Virus record (IMG/VR): IMGVR_UViG_3300036790_000131
Coordinates: 1 to 36,136 of that record
From: a virus
Direction: 5' to 3' (one strand)
DNA length: 36,136 nt
The notes below the pieces were generated by a model. That model was not told the origin of the DNA and did not search any database. It worked only from the letters and a program-made list of their open reading frames with translations. This document shows, piece by piece, positions 20,626-22,236 of this stretch; position 1 is the first letter of the stretch; the number at the start of each line of letters is the position of its first letter. A program made the translations under genes and the position numbers.

Positions 20626-21591
20626 TTAGCTAATCGCGCTTGCCGCATCAATCTGCCGCATACGAATGGTCGTATCCGGTCCCAGAGAGGTTGTGAAGTG
20701 GATTCGATAAGAAGTCCACCCCGGAATCAAACCTTCGGGGTCAGCAACCGTCGGCTCTGCGTTCTGTACGACGTTGCATTTGATGTTCTGCCAATCGCCA
20801 TCACCGTAATTAACGTCACCCTGTGCGCCAAGATTAATGGCGAAGATGCCGTCACGTCCGAAGATATAAGTGCGAAGTGCGGTCAGACCCGTGACGCCTT
20901 TGTAATTCGAGGTCTTAGTCACGAGGTTTGTCTGGAAGAAATGCACACCCGTAGACGGGATTTCAATCATTTCCTCAAGATCAACACTCACCAGTTCGTC
21001 CATCTTTTGCTGTCCTGCGACAGTATGCTTCAAGATGTCGATGGGGGAATCATTGCTGTTGTCAGCAAGGACATCACCCAAAGCGAACGGATGGATAACT
21101 CCGGCAAACGCCTTGGAAGCGTTGTCGAAGGGCTTCACAGCGCGACCCGCCAGCGACTGAACGCTGTTACGAATTTGAGACAAGCTCAAAGCCGTGAACG
21201 AGGAGGTGCTAGAAGCGGCCAACTGCACCAGCACGCTAGCGTCGATGGAAGATGCACCATCAGCGGTTGCACGCACAAGGGCAGACAGGGATTCGCCCAG
21301 ACGATACGACATTTCCTTCGCAACATTCTCAACGGTCTGGTCAATGGCAGTAGCCAGAGACAGCGAGGAGAAGTTTGCATAGTCAGCGTACTCACCGATT
21401 GTGGCCGTGGTCGTAAGAACGTTGATAGACAGAGAACTGCCCACGGTACCTTCCGTAGTCTGGACGGTATTTGCGGCCAGCGGAACGTACATGAAAAGCT
21501 CGTACTGGTTACCGGACTTCATCGGCAGGTCAAGACGCTCTGCACAACGAACGAACGGAGTCTGCGACTTCAGGTTCTCACGGAACTTTTT
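20626..21591 (-). CDS. Major capsid protein, N4-gp56 type, exon 2 (321 of 343 residues)
   Basis: Forms the icosahedral head shell. Reading starts at AAA AAG TTC after the intron, not at the internal ATG 21522. Characteristic N4-gp56-family landmarks: an LP-x-x-SG turn (LDLPMKSGNQ), a strand with LFMYVPLAANT, then TEGTVGSS and a TATIGEYADYANFS segment, followed by a helix with VENVAKEMSYRLGESLSALVRAT. Without exon 1 and the 23 codons before ATG 21522 the protein would lack the conserved N-arm. Spacing between YYD in exon 1 and the LP turn is 23 residues after joining, which is what I recall for the family. The upstream gene is the scaffold; an intrinsic terminator follows. Confidence 0.9.
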   Translation of the reverse strand, partial: KKFRENLKSQTPFVRCAERLDLPMKSGNQYELFMYVPLAANTVQTTEGTVGSSLSINVLTTTATIGEYADYANFSSLSLATAIDQTVENVAKEMSYRLGESLSALVRATADGASSIDASVLVQLAASSTSSFTALSLSQIRNSVQSLAGRAVKPFDNASKAFAGVIHPFALGDVLADNSNDSPIDILKHTVAGQQKMDELVSVDLEEMIEIPSTGVHFFQTNLVTKTSNYKGVTGLTALRTYIFGRDGIFAINLGAQGDVNYGDGDWQNIKCNVVQNAEPTVADPEGLIPGWTSYRIHFTTSLGPDTTIRMRQIDAASAIS

Positions 21592-22170
21592 CAGAACTTG
21601 TTACGTTGGAAGTCTCAACGGATTAGGCATTTCTGCTAATCTCATACGGTTTTGGTTTCCGTATGCTCGGACTATCACATCACCTTTTTGAGATACTCTA
21701 CAATATCCGTCAGTAGAATCAGATGATTTTCCATCACCCCTACCATAATATTGCAATACCAATGTGCCAAACCACGAACTTTGTTGGTTTCGTGATTATG
21801 CTCGATTTGGCAATCTCGATTGAAGATATTCGGAAGAATTTGATGACATACGGCACAAAGACCGTTTTGGTCATCCCATAACTTCTGCTTACCCTCGATT
21901 GTCATGTTATACTTTCGGAGCAAATGACGATTCAATTCAGCCTGCTTGTATTCAGGCTTTTCTCGATATCGTTTTTGATACTCATTCATCTTGGCACGGT
22001 TAAGTTGAAGCCAAGATTTTCTTTGTTCCGAAGTTTGCATGTGGTGCCCTCTCATTTAGTCTCTCACGGTGTAAAACTTTTGTCAAGTTTCACTTCCGCC
22101 TTATTCCCGTTACAGGGTTCAAGCCAATTAGAGTGGGTTTTTGACTACGACAAAAAGTCGCTTATCGCCA
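21592..22170 (-). ncRNA. Group I self-splicing intron in the major capsid gene, 579 bases
   Basis: Elements on the minus strand, given as window positions: P1, exon ACUACGAU (22171-22178) with intron GUCGUAGU (22144-22151), ending in a U-G pair at the 5' splice site. P3, CCCACUCU (22130-22137) with AGAGGG (about 22047-22052), one bulge. P4, GCUU (22121-22124) with AGGC (22098-22101). P5, CCC/GGG (22106-22117). P6a, nine pairs (22085-22093 with 22071-22079). P7, GACUA (22057-22061) with UAGUC (21670-21674). P9, seven pairs (21643-21649 with 21659-21665). P9.1, six pairs with a GAAA loop (21621-21641). P9.2, five pairs (21604-21620). P10, exon 2 AAAAAG (21586-21591) with CUUUUU (22152-22157). 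The last intron base is G (21592). P8 carries the HNH gene. I have not assigned a subgroup. Confidence 0.93.
21675..22040 (-). CDS. Intron-encoded HNH homing endonuclease, endonuclease VII type, 121 residues
   Basis: Encoded in the P8 region of the capsid intron. ATG 22040 is preceded by GAGAGGG; another ATG at 22055 is in frame but has no site. A basic helical N-terminus (1-50) should bind DNA. The core has C62xxC65, IEHNH at 79-83 where relatives usually have DHxH, and KVRGLAHWYCN at 87-97. The second metal pair appears to be H93/C96 rather than two cysteines, and glutamate replaces the usual first aspartate, so the metal site differs from the norm. The TGA stop lies directly against the P7 3' strand. 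The enzyme probably cleaves intronless capsid genes to spread the intron. Confidence 0.88.
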   Translation of the reverse strand: MQTSEQRKSWLQLNRAKMNEYQKRYREKPEYKQAELNRHLLRKYNMTIEGKQKLWDDQNGLCAVCHQILPNIFNRDCQIEHNHETNKVRGLAHWYCNIMVGVMENHLILLTDIVEYLKKVM

Positions 22171-22236
22171 ATCGTAGTACTTTACCGTGGACTGAGGCAG
22201 GTTAGAAAGCTGGTTACCTGAGGGAGAAAAACTCAT
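22171..22236 (-). CDS. Major capsid protein exon 1 (residues 1-22)
   Basis: ATG 22236 lies 12 bases after the scaffold stop, with AGGA ten bases upstream. It encodes 22 residues that start MSFSPSGNQLS and end STVKYYD, before the frame meets a stop seven bases inside the intron (TGG CGA TAA). The YYD ending is the conserved N-arm of N4-gp56-type capsid proteins. The exon ends in phase 0 at GAT, so joining to AAA of exon 2 keeps the frame. Too short to be recognised as a gene on its own. Confidence 0.9.

Follow-up and report, generated by a model that had tools for sequence, protein, structure and literature searches.

Group I introns in phage capsid genes have precedents. In mycobacteriophage LittleE (Cluster J), splicing of a capsid intron was shown by RT-PCR and N-terminal protein sequencing, and the same account cites another such intron in the lactococcal phage Tuc2009 (PMC3706429). 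Here we analyze an insertion of 579 nucleotides (nt) in the major capsid gene of IMG/VR record IMGVR_UViG_3300036790_000131 (positions 1-36,136, a metagenome-derived viral contig referred to below as the window), together with a set of much shorter insertions of 35-94 nt, here called minis, in the capsid genes of its relatives. By the available text of the LittleE account, that phage and the window share a group I-like intron in the major capsid gene, a U/G junction and a homing-endonuclease open reading frame (ORF), but LittleE belongs to another phage group, its endonuclease is LAGLIDADG-like rather than of the EndoVII type found here, and no mini-introns are reported in it (PMC3706429).

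Other described systems each match a part of what is seen at this locus. EndoVII-type (DHHRN) homing endonucleases include F-CphI of cyanophage S-PM2 and are intron-encoded in LUZ24, Berlin, JH2 and other phages (PMC6083498); they appear to share a catalytic family with the ORF in the window and likewise lie with or inside group I introns, but those introns are psbA-associated or interrupt DNA polymerase genes, whereas in the window the ORF occupies the P8 loop of a capsid-gene intron (PMC6083498). Bastillevirinae and Twort phages carry several group I introns per gene, with a short internal exon and observed exon skipping, but the introns in the accessible part of that account have cores, and coreless mini-introns are absent from it (PMC11878797). 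The small-subunit ribosomal RNA (rRNA) introns of Phialophora (63-75 nt) resemble the minis in being very short, in having P1 and P10 and in missing most of the core, but they keep P7, end in U, occupy one rRNA site and have no described partner intron (PMC3160393). Finally, in the engineered Tetrahymena spliceozyme a group I core excises an intron foreign to it, but that system is designed and trans-acting, whereas the minis are natural and their removal, as proposed below, would probably occur in cis (PMC4094466, PMC4509937). Capsid-gene group I introns, EndoVII-type introns, multi-intron phage genes and very short rRNA introns are thus already known. Our search, which covered open-access literature and omitted most subscription journals, was directed at group I introns that are short, lack a core, are bypassed or are spliced in trans; it found no natural core that removes a second, coreless intron.

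Judged from its sequence, the insertion in the window, which interrupts the major capsid gene of a tailed phage, is almost certainly a self-splicing and mobile group I intron, a reading carried by its boundaries, reading frame, covarying core, ORF family and near-identical alleles with and without an intron at the same site. All features lie on the minus strand. Exon 1 (22236-22171) comprises codons 1-22 from the ATG at 22236 and encodes MSFSPSGNQLSNLPQSTVKYYD, the intron occupies 22170-21592, and exon 2 (21591-20626) comprises codons 23-343 and begins KKFRENL; joined in phase 0, the exons encode 343 amino acids (aa) with 0 stops. The intron is delimited by an internal guide sequence (22157-22145) whose P1 half, GUCGUAG (22151-22145), pairs with exon 1 CUACGAU to leave a U-G pair at the 5' splice site, and whose P10 half, CUUUUU (22157-22152), pairs with exon 2 AAAAAG (21591-21586) and adjoins P1; the terminal intron base is G (21592). 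None of 300 dinucleotide shuffles reached the quality of P1 and P10 together (p = 0.003, the lowest value that the test allows), and a spliced-alignment program placed the junction at identical bases with or without a rule favoring U/G ends. An earlier sequence-only reading of this DNA had proposed these splice sites, the 579-nt length, phase 0 and the P1, P10 and terminal G that define them, and it was correct to the base. It also speculated that splicing might act as a control point for head production.

The spliced product is recognizably a capsid protein. Its relatives amount to 202 stretches in viral contigs, and the closest (L003) has 94% identity to residues 1-343 in a single intron-less frame of 1029 nt; since the spliced protein aligns with it unbroken, the junction is correct at the protein level. 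The profile of PHROG 1357 (major head protein) matches the spliced protein at 7.7e-17 and the unspliced frame from 21522 at 2.3e-8, which bears out the capsid identity given to the interrupted gene. A further assignment, to the N4-gp56 capsid family, holds in direction but not in strength: TIGR04387 matches residues 12-195 of the spliced protein at 46.0 bits (E 4.2e-12) and the unspliced frame at 29.5 bits, and neither reaches the curated cut-off of 60 bits. These scores weakly suggest a capsid related to the N4-gp56 family, and it is not filed as a TIGR04387 member. Among named phages, Tunturiibacter phage Tunturi_3, which has an Acidobacteriota host, is the nearest.

The group I helices drawn in the sequence-only reading are borne out by an alignment of 27 related cores, in which the window, with its ORF removed, is one row of a 45-pair structure. 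In this alignment 98.0% of 1207 cells are paired, against 78.1% in shuffled and 31-40% in slid versions (0 of 500 shuffles scored as high), and 36 of the 45 pairs have changed on both sides. The support extends from P3 to P9.1, covering P3, P4, P5, P6, P7 and P8 and including the P7 pseudoknot, whose double changes in relatives are G-C/A-U and A-U/G-C. In the window, the 5' strand of P3, CCCACUC (22137-22131), pairs with 22053-22047 with one A-A mismatch; the 5' strand of P7, GAGAGACUA (22065-22057), which holds the G-binding site, pairs with UAGUCC (21674-21669); P9 is the hairpin CAUACGG...CCGUAUG (21665-21643) of the core alignment; and the hairpins P9.1 (GAUUAG/CUAAUC) and P9.2 (CGUUG/CAACG) at 21641-21604 precede the 3' splice site.

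Covariance searching had been suggested earlier as a check. No relevant match to the window was found in Rfam, either at the gathering score or at E<=10. In contrast, a covariance model built from the trimmed core of the 27-row alignment, with the window among its training rows, matches the window on either side of the ORF, at 22140-22009 (70 bits) and 21721-21641 (40 bits), and also matches same-site sister introns from outside the training set at 69-84 bits. Rfam's RF00028 itself matches sister introns over their full length below its cut-off of 50, at 40.8 bits (E 4.6e-7) in L213 and 25.2 bits in L127. This gathering score is a library threshold, not a defining property of group I introns, and the Rfam group I model is reported to be incomplete for phage introns (PMC11878797).

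The ORF in the P8 loop, absent from the earlier reading, runs from 22055 or 22040 to 21675 (up to 126 aa) and encodes a putative homing endonuclease of the EndoVII type (DHHRN), by PF02945 (9e-15), PHROG 2914 (1.2e-17) and alignment. Its possible start overlaps P3 and its stop adjoins P7. The ATG at 22040 is the likelier start, because the close relatives L062 and L065 begin MQTSEQ at the equivalent position and GAGAGGG lies just upstream. The DHHRN motif of these enzymes is described as CX2-4C, DHDH, R and CX2C-N (PMC6083498), and the residues of the ORF that align with it are C67/C70, E85-H86-N87-H88, R94, C101 and N102. The Shine-Dalgarno-like GAGAGGG of the 22055-22040 region is also the 3' strand of P3, so that folding of the ribozyme and translation of the endonuclease may be mutually exclusive.

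Mobility is suggested by comparisons of alleles. A phage with a 567-nt intron at the window's site (L065) and one in which this site is empty (L029) share 99.98% identity across the 4432 nt upstream and 99.3% across 4.5 kb downstream, and other insertions also have near-identical pairs with and without them (L211/L171, 99.7%; L252/L016, 99.5%). At this site, codon 22, all 5 of the empty alleles compared read GAC and the alleles with an insertion read GAT, with the U that P1 requires. Across relatives, GAT is present in 17 of 17 genes with an insertion at codon 22 and 26 of 94 without, a difference partly built in by the U/G rule; since the excess of exon-end U is partly due to that rule, we rely on the near-identical allele pairs instead.

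In the mechanism we propose, the precursor RNA would fold into the P3-P9 core and a P1 in which the guide sequence pairs with exon 1; guanosine would attack after the U of codon 22, and the freed exon 1 would then attack after the terminal G, which P10 aligns, and restore the capsid message. Splicing would presumably be autocatalytic and efficient. The EndoVII-type endonuclease most likely cuts intron-less capsid alleles, whose repair would copy the intron in, and the distribution of alleles is consistent with homing driven by this ORF. Several points weigh against this picture: Rfam has no match in the window itself, the covariance model counts the window among its 27 training rows, homing is read from allele distribution only, and the ORF departs from the DHHRN consensus, with E in place of the first D of DHDH and HX2C in place of the second CX2C, deviations that leave endonuclease activity uncertain. 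Nevertheless, it is very improbable that the gene is simply broken by a dead or decaying insertion, with capsid made only from the 298-aa frame that does begin with an ATG at 21522: that product would lose 45 N-terminal residues kept in complete relatives, the junction region included, whereas P1, P10 and the core are undamaged, the endonuclease ORF retains its full length and an intron at the same site recurs across many distinct relatives. Still less credible is an insertion joined in by the assembler, even for a metagenome-derived contig, as introns homologous to this one occupy the identical position in many contigs of different metagenomes, and some of these contigs have a nearly identical counterpart without the intron.

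Relatives of the window's capsid gene were gathered by three routes. Told apart by their 3' sequence, they comprise 124 distinct genes, 102 of them complete, and insertions were mapped with the spliced-alignment program. Nearly half of the complete genes (48 of 102) carry insertions: 54 have none, 24 have full introns only, 24 have full introns plus minis and 0 have a mini alone. There are up to five insertions per gene, some genes carrying four or five, at about 30-40 sites, a total that varies with the merging of neighboring positions from different query numberings. Insertion lengths are two-peaked, with one class at or below 94 nt, a gap, and another of at least 180 nt. The full introns are of at least two kinds, one with an EndoVII-type ORF or none and the other with LAGLIDADG-like ORFs, the latter recognized by eye. 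Dropping the U/G rule raised the program's score in 25 of 62 genes; most of these cases concern large introns with approximate ends, and the boundaries of minis with and without the rule agreed within a few bases. The introns near site 31 of L070, L125 and L238 (about 240 to 1200 nt) have 3' ends that fit a terminal G poorly.

The 29 distinct minis (35-94 nt, at about ten sites) begin after a U, end in G and leave no room for a core, and every one of them breaks the message by a stop or a frameshift. The 5' end of a mini is a guide sequence: 27 of the 29 have a P1 of at least 6 base pairs (bp) directly abutting a P10 of at least 4 bp, the exceptions being L189, with a shifted P10, and L196 at site 22, with one P1 mismatch; shuffle p values are mostly 0.003-0.02. 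Moreover, the guides follow changes in their exons. At site 307, exon 2 GAAGGC, GAAGGU and GAAGGG are matched by AGCCUUU, AACCUUU and CCCCUUU, and at site 313, exon 1 CCCGGCU, CCUGGUU and CCUGGAU are matched by GGCCGG, GACCAG and GUCCAGG. When exons were swapped among minis of the same site, the cognate pairing was better in 55 cases, worse in 5 and equal in 14. For two minis at site 313 (L246 and L196), the program's boundaries were shifted manually to whichever equivalent junction gave the best P1, a choice that favors the hypothesis in these two cases. Identical minis recur in contigs from different metagenomes (L075/L076, L136/L138), making assembly error unlikely. With exon-end U, terminal G and contiguous P1 and P10, the minis appear to fit group I splicing substrates.

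A constant partner accompanies them. Each mini precedes a full intron by 15-121 nt, an order found at about eighteen different site pairs and never seen in reverse, and the partners include both kinds of full intron. Of two apparent exceptions, L155 has its partner 37 nt further on, beyond the query, and the contig of L170 ends at this point, with the partner present in the identical gene L202. Label permutation gives 10^-11 for this order, but related genes enter the calculation as if they were independent, and the figure should not be taken for a true probability. The full intron at site 327 (L127, L137, L152, L154, L210, L217, L240) always comes with an upstream mini, at 300, 307 or 313.

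Group I cores recognize P1 largely through its shape and its U-G pair. On balance, though with considerable reservation, we favor the reading that the minis are natural non-autonomous group I introns, with a P1 and P10 guide and a terminal G, that are excised by the core of the full intron downstream; one ribozyme would then remove two different introns from one transcript, probably in cis, and would parallel in nature the engineered spliceozyme (PMC4094466). It is the order and spacing that suggest removal by a neighboring core. No tether between a mini and its partner was found: complementarity between mini tails and the partner intron gave no signal (combined p 0.999).

Three other explanations can be weighed against these data. 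The minis could be autonomous miniature ribozymes like the 63-75-nt Phialophora introns, of which one of 67 nt splices in vitro (PMC3160393), and one mini (L244) does have a P7-like GACUGAUAGUC; this is unlikely, since most minis are shorter, down to 35 nt, with no common P7-like element seen by eye, and autonomy leaves their position just upstream of a full intron unexplained. About equally doubtful is removal in trans, by excised introns or by a host or phage factor instead of the neighbor in cis, for although trans removal has been engineered in a group I spliceozyme (PMC4094466), the fixed order and the 15-121-nt spacing to a downstream full intron are not predicted by it. Fainter still is the prospect that the minis are translational-bypass elements, of the T4 gene 60 or mitochondrial byp type, which the ribosome skips: their size is similar, the 5' hairpin contains the last codon of exon 1 and the codons flanking site 20 are mostly both TAT, but flanking codons, compared by eye, are equal at site 20 only and differ elsewhere (GAT/AAG, CGT/GAG, GCT/GAA, CCT/GAA, CCT/ACA, CCT/GAT) where bypass calls for matching take-off and landing codons, and it does not predict the terminal G, the junction U-G pair, a P10 that tracks exon-2 changes or the constant downstream partner.

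Returning to excision by a neighboring core, the distribution of the minis also hints at how they arose. The window gene has no mini, and its own site, 22, holds minis in relatives; sites 20, 22, 28 and 53 are occupied by a full intron or by a mini depending on the phage, which suggests core loss. The minis may thus derive from full introns that lost their cores once a neighbor could supply one. In L082, sites 20 and 52 hold two full LAGLIDADG-type introns where L204 and L213 have a mini and a full intron; the L082 arrangement is plausible as the ancestral state.

Taken alone, the window intron resembles cases already in the literature: a mobile intron, here well resolved, that interrupts a gene for a structural protein of the virion. 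Viewed together with its relatives, it points to an insertion hotspot, a capsid gene with insertions in nearly half of the complete homologs. If the minis are indeed spliced by a neighbor's core, group I introns can turn non-autonomous as transposons do, and the capsid gene would offer a natural system for studying the choice of a single ribozyme between two splice-site sets. It would also bear on a step often imagined from self-splicing introns toward a shared splicing machine.

Beyond the capsid gene, short "introns" placed by the program in two other genes look like alignment gaps. In bacterial genomes there was one match only, on a contig labeled as a Bacteroidetes metagenome-assembled genome. 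Group I introns of this family also occur in the portal gene of some relatives (L127 582-1100, L239 2664-3169, L164 4630-5105, L221 191-693), sometimes as two full introns 36-84 nt apart; among these portal-gene introns, no minis paired with full introns were seen. Insertions of 747-921 nt in the terminase large subunit gene of L145/L227 and L159 end near HN-C and look like inteins.
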